From: Micromonospora sp. NBC_01740
GTDB lineage: Bacteria; Actinomycetota; Actinomycetes; Mycobacteriales; Micromonosporaceae
Reading direction: 5' to 3'
Assembly: GCF_035920365.1 (NCBI RefSeq)
Contig: NZ_CP109150.1
Coordinates: 6,696,001-6,760,000 of the forward strand
DNA: 64,000 nt
In this document: positions 50,629 to 64,000 of the stretch, in pieces
Numbering within the stretch: position 1 is the first letter of the stretch
Layout of the letters: every line of letters begins with the position of its first letter
Notes under the pieces: model-generated
Told to the model about the DNA's origin: nothing
Databases searched by the model: none
Seen by the model: the letters and a program-made list of their open reading frames with translations, nothing else
Position numbers and translations under genes: made by a program

Positions 50629-51432
50629 TCAGCGGGTCGGGTTGCGGACGCCCTCGGCGAGTTCCGCGCTCAGCGCGCGCAGGGCGGCCAGCCCGGACTT
50701 CTCGTCGGGCGCGTCGAGCAGGCACCGGATCAGCGCGCTGCCGACGATGACGCCGTCGGCGTAGCCGGCGACCGTGCCGGCCTGCGCGCCCGTGCCGACG
50801 CCCAGCCCGACGCCGATCGGCAGGTCGGTGACCTCCCGCGTGCGGGAGACCAGGATCGGGGCCGCGTCGGAGGTCTTCGCCCGGGCGCCGGTGACGCCCA
50901 TGATCGCGGTGGCGTAGACGAAGCCCCGGCAGTGCTCGACGGTCATCGCCAGCCGCGCGTCGGTCGAGGACGGCGAGACCAGGAAGGTGCGGTCCAGCCC
51001 GTACGCGTCCGAGGCGGCGAGCCACTCGCCGGCCTCCTCCGGGATCAGGTCCGGGGTGACCAGCCCGGTGCCCCCGGCCGAGGCGAGGTCCCGGGCGAAG
51101 GCGTCGACGCCGTAGCGCTCGACCGGGTTCCAGTAGGTCATGGTGACCACGGGCGCCCCGGTGGCCGCGACGGCCTCGATGACGCGCAGCGTGTCGCGGG
51201 TGCGTACGCCGCCGGCGAGGGCGATGTCGCTGGCCTTCTGGATCACCGGGCCGTCCATCACCGGATCCGAGTACGGGATCTCCACCTCGATGACGTCGAC
51301 GCCGGCCTCGACCATCGCGGTCATCGCGGCGATGCTGCCCTCGACGGTCGGGAAGCCGGCCGGCATGCAGCCGACCAGCACGGCCCGCCCGTCGGCGCGG
51401 GCCTTGTCGAAGGCCACCCCGATCCGGCTCAC
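50629..51432 (-). CDS. trpA: Tryptophan synthase alpha chain
   Basis: A 267-residue TIM-barrel enzyme that releases indole from indole-3-glycerol phosphate. The catalytic Glu lies in DVIEVEIPYSDPVMDGPVIQ, with the catalytic Asp in the same stretch (MDGP). Other blocks are GLVTPDLIPEEAGEW, TFLVSPSSTDARL, YATAIMGVTGAR and PIGVGLGVGTGAQ. GTG at 51432 lies 4 nt after the trpB stop. Last gene of the trp operon. Confidence 0.97.
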   Translation of the reverse strand: MSRIGVAFDKARADGRAVLVGCMPAGFPTVEGSIAAMTAMVEAGVDVIEVEIPYSDPVMDGPVIQKASDIALAGGVRTRDTLRVIEAVAATGAPVVTMTYWNPVERYGVDAFARDLASAGGTGLVTPDLIPEEAGEWLAASDAYGLDRTFLVSPSSTDARLAMTVEHCRGFVYATAIMGVTGARAKTSDAAPILVSRTREVTDLPIGVGLGVGTGAQAGTVAGYADGVIVGSALIRCLLDAPDEKSGLAALRALSAELAEGVRNPTR

Positions 51433-51436
51433 GTTC

Positions 51437-52675
51437 TCACTGCTCCTTGTCGAGGATGCCGAAGTAGTCGCCGGCGGTGTGCACGTCCTTGTCGCCCCGG
51501 CCGGAGAGGTTGACCACGATCGTCGGCTCCCGACCCAGCTCGGCGGTGAGCTTCGGCGCGATCTTGAGGGTGCCGGCGAGCGCGTGCGCGCTCTCGATCG
51601 CCGGGATGATGCCCTCGGTGCGGCAGAGCAACTCGAACGCCGCCATCGCCTCCTCGTCGGTGACCGGCAGGTACGTCGCCCGGCCGCTGTCGTGCAGCCA
51701 GGCGTGCTCCGGCCCGACGCCCGGGTAGTCCAGCCCGGCGGAGATCGAGTGCGACTCGCACGTCTGCCCGTCGGCGTCCTGGAGCACGTACGTCCGGGTG
51801 CCGTGCAGCACCCCGGCGGACCCGCCGGTGATGCTGGCCGCGTGCCGGCCGGTCTCCACCCCGTCGCCGCCGGCCTCGAAGCCGTAGAGCCGCACGTCGG
51901 GGTCGCCGACGAAGGCGTGGAAGATGCCCAGCGCGTTGGAGCCGCCGCCGACGCAGGCGGTGACGGCGTCCGGCAGCGCGCCAGTCAGGTCCAGGCACTG
52001 CTGGCGCGCCTCGTCGCCGATGCCCCGGACGAAGTCGCGGACCATCGCCGGGAAGGGGTGCGGCCCGGCGGCGGTGCCGATCAGGTAGTGGGTGTCGTCG
52101 ACGTTGGCGACCCAGTCGCGCATCGCCTCGTTCATCGCGTCCTTGAGGGTGCGCGAGCCGTTGGTGACGGGGACGACGGTGGCACCGAGCATCCGCATCC
52201 GGGCCACGTTGAGCGCCTGCCGCTCGGTGTCGACCTCGCCCATGTAGACCACGCAGTCGAGATCGAACAGGGCGGCGGCGGTGGCGGTGGCGACGCCGTG
52301 CTGGCCGGCCCCGGTCTCCGCGATCACCCGGCGCTTGCCCATCCGCCTGGTCAGCAGGGCCTGGCCGAGCACGTTGCGCACCTTGTGCGCCCCCGTGTGG
52401 TTGAGGTCCTCCCGCTTGAGCAGCACCCGCGCGCCCAGCTTGGCGGAGAACCGCTCCGCCGCGTAGAGCAGCGAGGGAGTGCCGGCGTAGTCGCGCAGCA
52501 GGGCGCCGAACTCGGCCCGGAACGACTCGTCGGCCATCGCCGCGCGGTGCGCCGCGTCCAGCTCGTCGAGCGCCGCGACCAGTGCCTCCGGTACGAACCG
52601 GCCGCCGAACCGGCCGAAGTGACCGGCGGAGTCAGGCAGCGGACCGGCCGCGGCGGCCGTCACGTCGGCGCTCAT
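51437..52675 (-). CDS. trpB: Tryptophan synthase beta chain
   Basis: A 412-residue PLP enzyme that joins indole and serine. It has [20 protein letters not shown], the PLP lysine in [18 protein letters not shown], the catalytic Glu in [19 protein letters not shown], the phosphate loop [11 protein letters not shown], and [20 protein letters not shown]. In the HKxN motif the usual Asn two after the lysine is Arg (KVRN). ATG at 52675 is set by an ATGA overlap with a mini-ORF upstream; the family N-terminus begins about here. Confidence 0.97.
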
Positions 52676-52755
52676 GCCGGCACTCCGCTTCGCTCCGTGC
52701 CGCCATGAGGCAACTCCGCACTGAGCCTGATGACTCGCTCGCTCCGCTCGCTCAT
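52672..52755 (-). CDS. Mini-ORF B (27 residues), coupled between mini-ORF A and trpB
   Basis: The frame reads [20 protein letters not shown] then ERSGVPA and stop. Its ATG overlaps the stop of mini-ORF A as ATGA, and its own stop overlaps the trpB ATG as ATGA. It carries an extra SER triplet compared with ORF A. It is too short for a fold; it probably serves to carry ribosomes from trpC to trpB across an inserted repeat. Confidence 0.6.
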
Positions 52756-52826
52756 GCCGGCACTCCGCTTCGCTCCGTGCCGCCATGAGGCAACTCCGCA
52801 CTGAGCCTGAAGATTCGCTCGCTCAT
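52752..52826 (-). CDS. Mini-ORF A (24 residues), downstream of trpC
   Basis: The frame reads [20 protein letters not shown] then GVPA and stop. ATG at 52826 follows GAGAGGA, 37 nt after the trpC stop. The stop overlaps the start of mini-ORF B as ATGA. From residue 6 on it is the same as ORF B except for one residue (F/I), so the two arose by duplication. Confidence 0.6.
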
Positions 52827-52863
52827 GGGATCGTCCTCTCGGTGCTGACGAACCGGCGCGGGG

Positions 52864-53727
52864 TCAGCGCACCGGGCGGGGCGTGGCCGGGTGGTTGCCG
52901 GCGTTGACCAGCTCGGCCACCGCCTCGCGGGGGCTCTTCTGGGTGACCAGACCCTCGCCGACCAGGACCGCGTCGGCGCCGGCCGAGGCGTACCGGATGA
53001 GGTCGTGCGGGCCGCGCACCCCCGACTCGGCGATCTTGACGACGCTGCTGGGCAGGCCGGGCGCGATCCGCTCGAACACCGAGCGGTCGACCTCAAGGGT
53101 ACGCAGGTTGCGGGCGTTGACCCCGATGACCTGGGCGCCGGCCTCCAGGGCGCGGTCGGCCTCCTCCTCGTCGTGGACCTCGACCAGCGCGGTCATGCCC
53201 AGCGACTCGATCCGCTCCAGCAGGCCGACGAGGGCGTTCTGCTCCAGCGCGGCGACGATCAGCAGCACCAGGTCGGCACCGTGCGCGCGGGCCTCGTGCA
53301 CCTGGTAGCTGGAGACGACGAAGTCCTTGCGCAGCACCGGGATGCGGACGGCGGCGCGGACGGCGGCCAGGTCGTCGAGCGAGCCGCCGAACCAGCGGCC
53401 CTCGGTGAGCACGCTGATCGCCCGCGCCCCGCCGGCGGCGTAGTCGCCGGCCAGGTCGGCCGGGTCGGCGATCTCGGCCAGCCGCCCCTTGGACGGCGAC
53501 GAGCGCTTCACCTCGGCGATCACCGCGACGCCCGGCTTGCGCAGGGCCGCGTACGCGTCGAGCGGCGGCGGCGCGGCGGCGGCCAGTTCGCGGATCCGCT
53601 CCAGCGGAACCTGCTCCTGGCGCCGGGCGACGTCCTCGCGCACGCCGGCCAGGATCTCGTCGAGCACGCCTACGGACGCTGCCGTACCGGCGTCGTCCCC
53701 CTCCGCGTGCGCATGCTCAGCAGTCAC
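52864..53727 (-). CDS. trpC: Indole-3-glycerol phosphate synthase
   Basis: A 287-residue TIM barrel that makes indole-3-glycerol phosphate. It has [20 protein letters not shown] at the start of the fold, the catalytic lysine in [52 protein letters not shown]-like [16 protein letters not shown] and [23 protein letters not shown] at 53727 has GGGGAG 7 nt upstream; ATG at 53754 is the alternative. Full length. Confidence 0.96.
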
Positions 53728-54157
53728 CAACGGACTCCCCTCTCCGGGTGTCATGGGCCGATGCTAGGGGGCGCCACCTGGCGACGGCCGCCGGGGGTAT
53801 GGCGTGCCTCACGAGATGGGCTGGGGCATAATGGCCGACCTCCGGTGAACGGGATGTCACGCAGGGCGACCGCACCCAGCGACGAAAGACACCCGACCAT
53901 TCCCGCCCCCACCCCCCGGGTCATCGACGTGATCCTATCTGAGGGCGCGGCCGGCCGCCCGGCCCGGCGACCGCCGCGGACGCCGGTCGATGGTGTGACC
54001 TACCTCAAGGTCGAACGGCCCTTTGCCTGGTGGCGGCCCTGCGAGCAGTGTTGACGTGTCGGTCACCACGGCGAAACGTGAACCAGCCAGCATCGTCCTC
54101 GGGCAGACTCGATGACGCGCCTGCCCCACCGTCACCAACGATCCTCGCGGGGTGATC
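53728..54157. other. 430-bp divergent gap upstream of trpC
   Basis: It lies between trpC (minus) and a small plus-strand gene. In many actinobacteria this position holds a short HGxxPAAW-type membrane-protein gene, which I do not find here. A plus-strand TTGACG (about 54051) and a CATAAT (about 53829) are weak promoter elements. No Trp-rich leader peptide or attenuator hairpin is evident. Confidence 0.55.
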
Positions 54158-61827: not shown

Positions 61828-63636
61828 TCAGCGGGTCTGCTCCAGCCAGGAGGCGTAGAGCAGGCCGTAGACCGACTCCGGGTCGCGGACCAGCTCGTCG
61901 TGCGGACCGCGCTGCACGATCCGGCCCTTGTCCACCACGATCACCTCGTCGGCGGCCTGCGCCGTGGAGAGCCGGTGCGCGATCGCGAGGGTGGTGCGCC
62001 CCCGGGTCACCGCGTCCAGGGTGCGTTGCAGCCGCACCTCCGTGGCCGGGTCGACCGCGCTGGTCGCCTCATCCAGCACCAGCAGGTCCGGGTCGGCCAC
62101 GTACGCGCGGGCCAGCGCCACCAGCTGGCGCTCCCCCACGCTCAGCGCCTCGCCGCGCTCCCCCACCGGCGTGTGCAGGCCCGACGGAAGCCCGTCCAGC
62201 CAGTCCGCCAGCCCCAGCTCGGTGAAGGCCGCCGAGAGCTGCGCGTCCGTCAGCTCCGGGCGGGCGAAGCGGACGTTCTCCGCCACCGTGGCGTCGAAGA
62301 GGAAGCCGTCCTGCGGCACCATCACCACCCGCGAGCGCAGCGAGCCGAACCGGACCCGCTCCAGCGGCACGCCGGAGAGCAGCACCTGGCCGGCGGTCGG
62401 GTCCATCAGGCGGGTGAGCAGCTTGGCGAAGGTGGTCTTGCCGCTGCCCGTCTCCCCCACCACCGCCACCCGGCTCTTCGCCGGGATCTCCAGGCTGACG
62501 TCGTGCAGCACGGGCGGACCCCCCGGGTACGCGAAGCGCACCCCCGCGAAGCGGATGTCCAGCGGGCCGGACGGCAGCTCGCGCCCCTGCTCGCCCGGGT
62601 CGGCGACGTCCGGCTCGACGTCCAGCACGTCCAGCACCCGGCGCCAGCCCGCGATGGCGTTCTGCGCCTCGTTGAGCACCTCGGTGGCGATCTGCACCGG
62701 CTGGATGAAGAGCGTGACCAGGAAGAGGAAGGCGGTCACCTCGCCGATGCTCAGGGTGCGGTCGGCGCCGAGGGTCACCCCGAGCACCACCACGCCGGCC
62801 AGCGCCAGGCCGGCCGCCAGCTCCCCGACCGAGCTGCCCATGATGCTGATCCTGATCGCCCGCTGCTGGGCCCGACGCTGGCCGTCGATCGCCTCGTCGA
62901 GCCGGCGGGCCGTCCGGCCGGCGATCCCGTAGGCCCGGATCACCGGCGCGCCGACCACGCTCTCCCCGATCGCGCCGAGCAGCGTGCCTGTCCGCTGCCG
63001 GACCACCCCGTACGCCCCGGCGAGGCGGCGCTGGAGCCGCCGGATCACGAACACCGCGGGCAGGAAGGCGGCGAAGACCACCAGGGTCAGCTGCCAGGAG
63101 TACGCGAACATGACAAGCGTGGTGACCGCCAGCTGACCGAGGTTGATCACCAGGATCACGCCGCCCCACTGGAGGAACTGGGTGATCTGGTCGACGTCGC
63201 TGGTCACCCGGGAGACAAGCGAACCGCGCCGCTCCGACTGCTGGTGCAGCATCGACAGGTCGTGCACGTGCCGGAACGCCCGGATCCGCACGTTGGCCAG
63301 CGCGGTCTCGCTGACCGTGAAGAGCCGGCGCATCATCAGGTAGCCGCAGATCGTGGTCACCACCAGCACCGCGACGGTGGCGGCGACCACCGTCCAGACC
63401 ACGCCCAGGTCCAGGCCGCCGACGATGCCGTTGTCGATGCCCTGCTGCACCGCCACCGGGACGGCCGCCCGGCCGACCATGTAGACCAGGGCCAGGCCGA
63501 GCGTGCCGGCCAGGCCGACCCGCAGCTCCGGGGAGAGCGCCAGACCGCGGCGCAGCGTCTGCCACGTCGTCTCGGTCGTCTCCGGAACGTCGACGGCCTC
63601 GGCCTCGGCCTTCCGCGTGTCCGTGGCAGTGGTCAC
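61828..63636 (-). CDS. ABC exporter half-transporter (type IV, canonical ATP site)
   Basis: A 602-residue fusion of six membrane helices (about 45-340) and an ATPase domain. Walker A VVGETGSGKTTFAK, the Q-loop VMVPQDGFLFDATVAENVRF, signature ALSVGERQLVALARAYV (LSVGE in place of LSGGQ), Walker B LLVLDEATSAVDP and H-loop TLAIAHRLSTAQAADE are present. It is the partner of the half-transporter at the right edge, and is linked to it by a 20-codon ORF. GTG at 63636. Possible role in lipid, siderophore or drug export. Confidence 0.92.
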   Translation of the reverse strand: MTTATDTRKAEAEAVDVPETTETTWQTLRRGLALSPELRVGLAGTLGLALVYMVGRAAVPVAVQQGIDNGIVGGLDLGVVWTVVAATVAVLVVTTICGYLMMRRLFTVSETALANVRIRAFRHVHDLSMLHQQSERRGSLVSRVTSDVDQITQFLQWGGVILVINLGQLAVTTLVMFAYSWQLTLVVFAAFLPAVFVIRRLQRRLAGAYGVVRQRTGTLLGAIGESVVGAPVIRAYGIAGRTARRLDEAIDGQRRAQQRAIRISIMGSSVGELAAGLALAGVVVLGVTLGADRTLSIGEVTAFLFLVTLFIQPVQIATEVLNEAQNAIAGWRRVLDVLDVEPDVADPGEQGRELPSGPLDIRFAGVRFAYPGGPPVLHDVSLEIPAKSRVAVVGETGSGKTTFAKLLTRLMDPTAGQVLLSGVPLERVRFGSLRSRVVMVPQDGFLFDATVAENVRFARPELTDAQLSAAFTELGLADWLDGLPSGLHTPVGERGEALSVGERQLVALARAYVADPDLLVLDEATSAVDPATEVRLQRTLDAVTRGRTTLAIAHRLSTAQAADEVIVVDKGRIVQRGPHDELVRDPESVYGLLYASWLEQTR

Positions 63637-63695
63637 CGGGCTTGCCTTTCGTTCGCGACTGCGGGGCTCCGCTGCGCTGCACTCCTCGCGCTCAC
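63633..63695 (-). CDS. Mini-ORF C (20 residues) coupling two ABC half-transporters
   Basis: It reads MSARSAAQRSPAVANERQAR and stop. GTG at 63695 overlaps the upstream transporter's stop as GTGA, and its own stop overlaps the next GTG start as GTGA. The DNA is unlike its neighbours (purine-rich, GGAGTGCAGCGCAGCGGAGC) and looks like a repeat. The function is likely ribosome hand-over rather than a protein. Confidence 0.55.
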   Translation of the reverse strand: MSARSAAQRSPAVANERQAR

Positions 63696-64000
63696 CGGTC
63701 CACCTCGATTTCCAGGCCCGACGTCAGCGGGGCGACCTCGTCGTACGTCTCGTCCTTCGCGTGGTCGACCTCGGCCTGCTCGTAGGCGGTGACCAGGTCG
63801 GCGTAGCCCGGCACCGTGGCCAGCAGCTCGGTGTGCGGGCCGCGGGCGAGCACCCGGCCCTGTTCCAGGTAGACCACCTCGTCGGCCAGCGCGATGGTGG
63901 CCCGCCGGTAGGCGACCACCAGGATCGACGCGGCCGGCGCCCCGGCCTGCCCCGCCGAGGAGCGCAGCCCGGCCAGGATGGCCGCCTCCACGCGGGGGTC
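63692..64000 (-). CDS. ABC exporter half-transporter, C-terminal part (degenerate H-loop)
   Basis: Only the last 102 residues lie in the window. It begins DPRVEAAILAGLRSS, just after Walker B. The H-loop, normally AHR, reads ILVVAYRRATIALADEV, so the catalytic His is Tyr. After the ATPase core comes a tail (VDHAKDETYDEVAPLTSGLE). It forms a heterodimer with the downstream half, whose site is intact: a known arrangement of one degenerate and one active site. The start lies beyond 64000. Confidence 0.88.
   Translation of the reverse strand, partial: DPRVEAAILAGLRSSAGQAGAPAASILVVAYRRATIALADEVVYLEQGRVLARGPHTELLATVPGYADLVTAYEQAEVDHAKDETYDEVAPLTSGLEIEVDR

Follow-up and report, generated by a model that had tools for sequence, protein, structure and literature searches.

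Why should two very short open reading frames (ORFs), largely copies of one another, stand between trpC and trpB in Micromonospora sp. NBC_01740? The window analysed here is a 64,000-nucleotide (nt) stretch of this genome (contig NZ_CP109150.1, positions 6,696,001 to 6,760,000), and a preliminary description of it had proposed that a repeat was inserted at this point and duplicated while a chain of ATGA overlaps was kept. That proposal has held, in that the repeat is a cassette dispersed through genomes of the genus. We consider it very probable that the mini-ORFs, called A and B below, are two tandem copies of a dispersed translation-coupling cassette, similar to the mycobacterial interspersed repetitive units (MIRUs), inserted at the ATGA(GC) start of trpB. 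The argument is built on dispersal, target site, the DTGA on both sides of the units, the phase of their frame, their orientation and a Shine-Dalgarno-like motif, all readable at the level of sequence, and on two predicted hairpins supported by covariation.

On the minus strand the gene order given by the ORFs and NCBIfam is trpC, a 37-nt gap, mini-ORF A, mini-ORF B, trpB and trpA (Table 1). The mini-ORFs of 24 and 27 codons are present as described at 52672-52826 on the minus strand, and their peptides, said to be identical from R7 of A and R10 of B, indeed show no differences from there to the C-terminal end. As DNA the two form a direct repeat of 76 nt with 97% identity at 80-nt spacing, mini-ORF A missing 9 nt of the 5' hairpin arm near the unit start. 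Stop of A and start of B overlap as ATGA at 52752-52755, and stop of B and start of trpB at 52672-52675. The chain had been thought to begin at trpC; it begins only at A, for the trpC stop lies at 52864-52866 and mini-ORF A starts 37 nt further on with no ATGA overlap. We take the GAGAGGA before mini-ORF A as the original ribosome site of trpB, and relatives with an empty site carry the same or a similar Shine-Dalgarno motif directly 5' of trpB.

An 86-nt query from the window gave 24 matches in its own genome at E ≤ 1 and 13 at E ≤ 1e-3, two being only 34 and 29 nt long, and these matches are far above chance level. At E ≤ 1e-3 the unit was found in 23 of 41 genomes, which are 23 of the 25 from the same genus (the window's own counted), and in none of the 16 genomes from other families of the order. 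Among same-genus genomes, 124 loci with matches resolve into 113 distinct arrays holding 140 copies (92 single, 18 double, 2 triple and one of six), with units of 73-86 nt. These arrays lean towards well-kept copies, since they derive from the best matches and about 17 of some 150 of these were left out. With genes called by a home-made codon model, the downstream gene is co-directional in 113 of 113 arrays and the upstream gene in 102; 102 arrays are in frame with the downstream gene and 51 overlap on both sides. When the arrays are collapsed by related downstream protein, 79 sites remain, with co-directional neighbours downstream in 79 and upstream in 72; the upstream stop falls inside the first unit's DTGA in 44, the terminal start opens a gene in frame in 73, and both hold in 40. 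As background, unit-free adjacent gene pairs at the same loci are co-directional in 249 of 359 cases, 63 of the 249 with a DTGA overlap.

The insertion target is, as read from empty and filled alleles, a DTGA start codon that ends up on both sides of the insert. At trpB itself, 30 loci were read by eye from 31 genus genomes (in the 31st the match reached just 59%): one, the window's, holds this unit, two hold another cassette, one a tiny ORF and 26 no insert, and all 30 trpB genes start ATGAGC. Elsewhere, the L018/L164 pair sets an empty GGCATGAGCAACGG against a filled allele with ATGAGC on both sides, and L014/L172 an empty ATGACC against a filled allele with ATGAGC on the left and ATGACC on the right; this junction is ATGACC in all five further relatives read (L402, L403, L404, L406 and L407). 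Where the target is GTG (L019/L178 and L020/L180), GTGA stands on both sides. The first bases of the left and right DTGA are correlated among 82 single units (AA 69, GG 7, GA 5, AG 1; Fisher p=1.6e-6). The unit had been described as beginning ATGAGC and ending CATGA, which fits most copies and fails for those with GTGA at either end; the flanking DTGA is best read as a reflection of the insertion target. The two bases 3' of the terminal DTGA are GC in 87, GT in 18 and others in 4 (n=109), whereas G comes next at 21 of 63 native DTGA starts. Most of the other own-genome sites share the unit or its remnants with the nearest genome: L012, L013, L017 and L019 and, in more decayed form, L020, L021 and L022; for L015 the nearest genome has no usable counterpart.

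The reading frame is kept in nearly all units. DTGA stands at both ends in register in 127 of the 140 copies, and 124 of the 127 are open through the terminal TGA, with no internal stops and three frameshifts. The 13 copies outside this count have no DTGA in the expected register: seven are shorter forms (six intact, the window's copy A among them), and six are partial, truncated, end-altered or, in L118 judged by eye, short. In a simulation matched to the units in column variability and substitution spectrum, about 13 of the 96 units of the two main sub-types would be expected to contain a stop, and none is observed to. In the other frames of 112 units, stops occur in 37 for forward frame 2 and in 69, 18 and 98 for the reverse frames; forward frame 1, with a stop in 112 of 112, is worthless as a control because the TGA of the start overlap is its first codon. 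The sub-types SERSERIIRLSA and SERQRANHRLSA differ by compensating shifts, one base inserted and one deleted 17 columns later, and codon position 3 of the middle segment has no excess variability, which argues that the frame is kept rather than the peptide. The trait kept is thus an open frame of fixed phase. Added copies do preserve the chain, though not automatically as had been claimed, only while copy length stays in phase.

At L020, L021 and the relatives L166, L174, L176 and L179, partial units appear by eye to be fused to the downstream gene start as N-terminal extensions, e.g., SERSART..., which suggests that decaying cassettes can supply new protein N-termini.

Each unit is predicted to fold into two hairpins, and GGAG, GAGG or GGGG lies 7 nt before the next start in 75 of 77 terminal units. 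In the 3' hairpin, with stems CTCATG/CATGAG and CGGCAC/GTGCCG, CUCAU is predicted to pair with the AUGAG of the next start. In alignment A1 (65 units, no two above 90% identity), 20 named pairs are paired in 95.6% of cells and eight change on both sides (44 cells); none of 500 shuffles reached any of five pairing measures, in a control that keeps no account of unit relatedness, so that related rows can exceed shuffles. RNAalifold, with the structure not supplied, recovered four pairs of the six-pair 5' helix and ten of the twelve in the 3' helix; the outermost pairs 1-24 and 2-23 and a small loop helix were not recovered. Departures from pairing in its table are mostly G-U (52 cells, 14 at one pair) against 13 A-C, favouring folding of the sense strand. 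At 77 sites where the start codon follows a unit, its unpaired probability has a median of 0.01, compared with 0.48 for native DTGA starts (n=63; p=2.8e-8).

Base 1 of the start codon varies in step with its partner at position 24 of the unit. In the genus set (loci below L197, including L192 from another genus) the 1/24 pair is A-T 70, G-C 9, A-C 3 and G-T 1 (p=6e-9), and in all other groups pooled (L307-L348 being one of them) A-T 49, G-C 17, A-C 3 and G-T 3 (p=8e-11), a table in which a few rows (L240, L286) may be off register. Start-codon base 1 and internal base match in 13 of 13 named Nocardia units; the named Micromonospora subset of the pooled groups shows no covariation (A-T 22, A-C 2, G-T 2, G-C 0). 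The base is matched internally on the left at position 24, in several groups, and on the right at position 51, in the genus count. A speculative and rather doubtful extension is that the end hairpins are targeting devices by which the cassette chooses ATGAG/GTGAG starts through base pairing, coupled starts being programmable landing sites shared by several families. Guide-like pairing to the whole five-base target was rejected, as units at ATGACC or ATGAA targets lack matching changes by eye, which limits the support to the first target base.

How such a unit would work can be outlined. The target DTGA stands on either side of the inserted core, whose frame runs from the left DTG to the TGA of the right DTGA, so that a ribosome entering at the old trpB Shine-Dalgarno would pass through A, B and trpB in turn by termination-reinitiation. 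Each unit brings a GGAG 7 bases before the next start and a predicted hairpin pairing that start with the CUCAU inside the mini-ORF; the start would then be closed to free ribosomes until the one translating the mini-ORF opens it. Since this ribosome would reinitiate at a start it has just uncovered, insertion may cost the host little. We infer coupling in vivo, near-neutral insertion as the cause of the cassette's success, and mobility as against spread by recombination.

The unit also occurs beyond the genus, in scattered genomes of the class. R1, our model of it, has matches in 133 of 200 genomes (27 of 44 genera) of the window's taxonomic family, 71 of 298 genomes in the order (mostly the window's genus), 12 of 201 genomes and 3 of 31 genera in the family of G434, and 19 of 296 genomes and 9 of 114 genera in the class at E ≤ 1e-4. 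A separate DNA pattern gave 118 stretches among named genomes; the 80 listed are mainly from Micromonospora, Nocardia, Pseudonocardia and Actinokineospora. A stretch in an Acidimicrobiia metagenome-assembled genome (MAG) also has an R1 match; lone pattern matches without any R1 match, in Paenibacillus, a Flavobacteriales MAG and a Planctomycetota MAG, are taken as chance. Context was read from 82 of 83 named-locus rows (one L236 row dropped). Downstream and upstream neighbours are co-directional in 32 of 33 and 22 of 32 Nocardia units with a gene call, in 11 of 11 and 11 of 11 for Actinokineospora, and in 9 of 10 and 11 of 11 for Pseudonocardia. In a set of 48 units outside the genus, which shares some genomes with the named loci, 42 are intact from DTG to DTGA; 44 have an open frame of at least 60 codons and 31 are preceded by a frame of at least 60 codons ending in the unit's DTGA, counts that are weak because chance alone often gives long open frames at this G+C.

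Two local peculiarities were seen on the way. The distribution in family f8 is patchy: G480, with a genome of 4.2 Mb, has 17 matches, and 28 of the 31 sampled genera have none. In Pseudonocardia L244, L269 and L295, copies of the core motif are spaced 30 bp apart, a distance divisible by 3, vs the 80-nt (2 mod 3) arrays.

The window holds a copy of a second repeat family as well, between genes at 63692-63991 and 61828-63636, both on the minus strand. Its unit, GTGAGCGCGAGGAG..CGCAGTCGCGAACGAAAGG, has 66 matches in the window's genome (E ≤ 0.01), often in tandem. In 29 arrays the upstream gene is co-directional in 26 and the downstream gene in 27, and in 23 the stop of the upstream gene is part of the unit's DTGA. 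In 36 of 48 units read, the terminal DTGA doubles as the start of the following unit or gene; in 12 this is not so, and eight further units without DTGA in register stand outside the 48. Its frame also comes in two variants, SELASPAVANE and SEPVLRAPQSRTE. The second family is, judging by these ends and neighbours, a distinct cassette with the same DTGA logic. The two families meet at shared junctions: among further relatives the L018 junction is empty in L396, L397, L398 and L400, lacks the overlap in L399 and is occupied by a second-family cassette in L401, as is the L012 junction in L410 and L411.

Other small inserts were also noted. At the trpB ATGAGC of L143 and L148 (G008 and G012) sits a third kind of cassette, ATGAGCGARCGyGAGCGATTCGTCACCGGC...GGAGCGGCGGCATGAGC, and in L153 (G003) a 7-codon ORF, ATGAGCGAACAGGTCATGGCATGA, is joined to trpB through ATGA. 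By eye, the upstream flank of L012 and L408 have mini-ORFs of about 15 and 12 codons, chained by DTGA and not recognised as repeats, at a junction where other species carry cassettes of family 1 or family 2.

Table 1. Features of the window at the trp locus and the second-family copy (window coordinates; all on the minus strand).
Feature	Coordinates	Strand	Remarks	Basis
trpA	50629..51432	-		above NCBIfam cut-off
trpB	51437..52675	-	start codon is the insertion target	NCBIfam TIGR00263, 589 bits, cut-off 392
3' hairpin, unit B	52671..52709	-	unit positions 47-85; predicted to bury trpB start	fold and covariation
Mini-ORF B	52672..52755	-	27 codons, full-length unit	R1, 104.6 bits (copy is part of model)
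GGAG, unit B	52683..52686	-	Shine-Dalgarno-like, 7-nt spacer to trpB ATG	sequence
5' hairpin, unit B	52733..52755	-	predicted; unit positions 1-23, start-codon base 1 pairs with 23	family pair counts
3' hairpin, unit A	52751..52789	-	predicted to bury mini-ORF B start	sequence same as unit B
Mini-ORF A	52752..52826	-	24 codons, short-form unit	R1, 83.9 bits at G000:C1:6748751-6748826
GGAG, unit A	52763..52766	-	Shine-Dalgarno-like, 7-nt spacer to mini-ORF B	sequence
Gap, trpC stop to mini-ORF A	52827..52863	-	37 nt, with GAGAGGA Shine-Dalgarno	sequence
trpC	52864..53754	-	indole-3-glycerol phosphate synthase, upstream operon gene	NCBIfam NF001369, 453 bits, cut-off 329
Second-family unit	63633-63695	-	VSARSAAQRSPAVANERQAR, then stop	GTGA overlap with both neighbours

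Several results weigh against the reading of the units as inserted coupling cassettes. At trpC there is no overlap coupling. Copies had been expected between co-directional genes, with random orientation or positions outside operons counting against the idea; orientation towards the downstream gene is uniform in the genus arrays, but the upstream gene of 11 of the 113 is not co-directional, so those copies are not within an operon, and in named genomes the downstream gene is called the opposite way at L242, L260 and L267. The five GA units and the AG unit do not fit simple target duplication, and at L019 the start base itself varies between species. Nocardia units keep both DTGA ends in only 23 of 33 cases and an intact frame in 15 of 23, besides having a co-directional upstream gene in only 22 of 32 (Actinokineospora, both ends 8 of 11, intact 7 of 8; Pseudonocardia, both ends 3 of 11, intact 3 of 3); ends and frames are less complete in these genera perhaps because R1 was built on the window's genus. 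Frame retention could be partly due to copying from intact sources. As to structure, besides the unit relatedness ignored by the shuffles, the window unit folds only modestly better than its own shuffles (z -1.72 as RNA, -1.63 as DNA), and its best RNA fold has the 3' hairpin and not the 5' one. Finally, no transposase could be linked to the unit by Y1 transposase PF01797 in 21 genomes, and the case for mobility comes from dispersal and empty sites.

How the copies spread is where a competing account is strongest. It is quite possible, if somewhat short of an even call, that short homology (DTGAGC, GAGCGAGCG) gene-converts or slips copies into other starts, with tandem arrays growing by slippage and the role in situ being as in the coupling reading. 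Near-identical tandem copies at 80-nt spacing, up to six in a row, would be natural products of such recombination, as would the preference for DTGAG targets; the GA and AG hybrid units suggest exchange between copies, and a Y1 transposase is not required. The L014 target, however, shares only the four bases with the unit, being ATGACC in the nearest genome and in the five relatives, and GTGAAC at L020/L180 is a second, less clean, case. Moreover, cassettes with different interiors occupy the same junctions, which points to a targeting rule rather than to homology with one repeat. An ordinary palindromic repeat, of the repetitive extragenic palindromic (REP) or bacterial interspersed mosaic element (BIME) type mobilised by a RAYT, could account for two conserved hairpins in a dispersed, intergenic sequence and would hold an open frame by chance. 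Strict orientation, the kept frame and the DTGA ends speak against it and make it very unlikely, and PF01797, present in 6 of the 21 genomes, bears no relation to unit number, with 4 of 11 mostly unit-rich genomes and 2 of 10 unit-poor ones having it (it is absent from G200, G209, G217, G003, G005, G224 and G234); RAYT/IS200-type mobilisation was therefore rejected. Carriage by phage or plasmid was likewise set aside, phage and plasmid collections containing no window-like copy.

Two further accounts place the function in the product or in the operon. Were the mini-ORFs to encode functional peptides, with coupling secondary, the 124 intact frames of 127 would be explained. Yet one DNA core gives two frame variants with different peptides, codon position 3 does not exceed both other positions in variability, and the second family makes the same kind of frame swap; with no codon-position signal of selection on the peptide, the account is highly improbable. 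The position between trpC and trpB would also suit a trp-specific small regulatory gene, such as Streptomyces trpM/trpX of the trpCXBA locus, or an attenuator leader peptide, and the portion of PMC5036795 concerned presents TrpM as a small ORF of that locus in S. coelicolor. This is scarcely credible when only 1 of 30 genus trpB loci has the unit, a count on which a trp-specific function was rejected, when the same kind of unit lies 5' of dozens of other genes, and when the peptides lack tryptophan and have no NCBIfam match. An Rfam search of window positions 52400-53100 gave one match, outside the units, at 13.9 bits vs a gathering threshold of 95.9.

With the coupling cassette as the preferred reading, the wider interest lies in where its logic recurs. 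MIRU repeats, with which tuberculosis strains are typed, have so far been regarded as peculiar to mycobacteria and as a tool for typing. In the present case DTGA insertion, frame and chain recur in a repeat without known MIRU relation that is spread across several families of the class, and once more in another repeat family of the same genome, the two sharing two junctions in different species. On this view coupled start codons would be a general safe harbour for small elements, and some of the clutter between genes in actinobacterial operons could be explained in this way. With related species carrying either the empty or the filled allele, reinitiation coupling and its cost can be tested in a defined system, and the covarying start-codon base is a testable clue to RNA control or insertion targeting.

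Among known systems, REP/BIME palindromic repeats are dispersed, form hairpins and lie between genes, all of which the cassette shares; they occur in both orientations, whereas the cassette is one-way in 113 of 113 arrays, keeps a frame, is flanked by DTGA and has no Y1/RAYT link. In a passage of PMC12548453, a short upstream ORF is said to bring the ribosome to a start past repressive RNA structure (coupling, or bicistronic design); our mini-ORFs likewise would deliver the ribosome to a start codon, but as part of a dispersed repeat with its own hairpin and Shine-Dalgarno. TrpM/TrpX, a small ORF described in part of PMC5036795 as conserved among streptomycetes, also lies between trpC and trpB; the cassette differs as a repeat that is not trp-specific and present at 1 of 30 trpB loci, a distinction drawn from context and not from sequence.

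The closest resemblance is to the MIRUs. The cassette, like them, is a dispersed intergenic short repeat in the same orientation as downstream genes, with start-codon insertion, variable-number tandem arrays and a small ORF coupled downstream at -4 spacing. MIRUs, reportedly the subject of Supply et al. in 1997, share the orientation of adjacent genes and insert at DTGA start-codon sites; to our knowledge they are described as without dyad symmetry. Passages in a 2025 review (PMC12548453) present them as apparently mobile elements that insert at start codons and carry an ORF with -4 coupling, and as 'found in many mycobacteria'; by a statement in PMC4213456 they are restricted to M. leprae and the M. 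tuberculosis complex, with sizes of 77 and 53 bp, and a line of PMC2734929 defines them as short repeats of 40-100 bp. On the sizes given there, 77 and 53 bp and the cassette's 80 and 71 nt are all 2 mod 3. The hosts differ, the cassette being found in Micromonospora, Nocardia, Pseudonocardia and Actinokineospora, with no R1 match in the listed genomes of genus g8, whose identity as Mycobacterium is a guess; among the papers listed by our literature searches there was no non-mycobacterial MIRU counterpart. Because of its two conserved hairpins we file the cassette as MIRU-like rather than as a MIRU, a separation made by description and not by sequence. The kind of element is already known, MIRUs being described in the same terms in the review passages (PMC12548453). 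What appear to be new are the sequence family, its hairpins with a covarying start base, the breadth of its hosts, and a second family and distinct cassettes at the same junctions.
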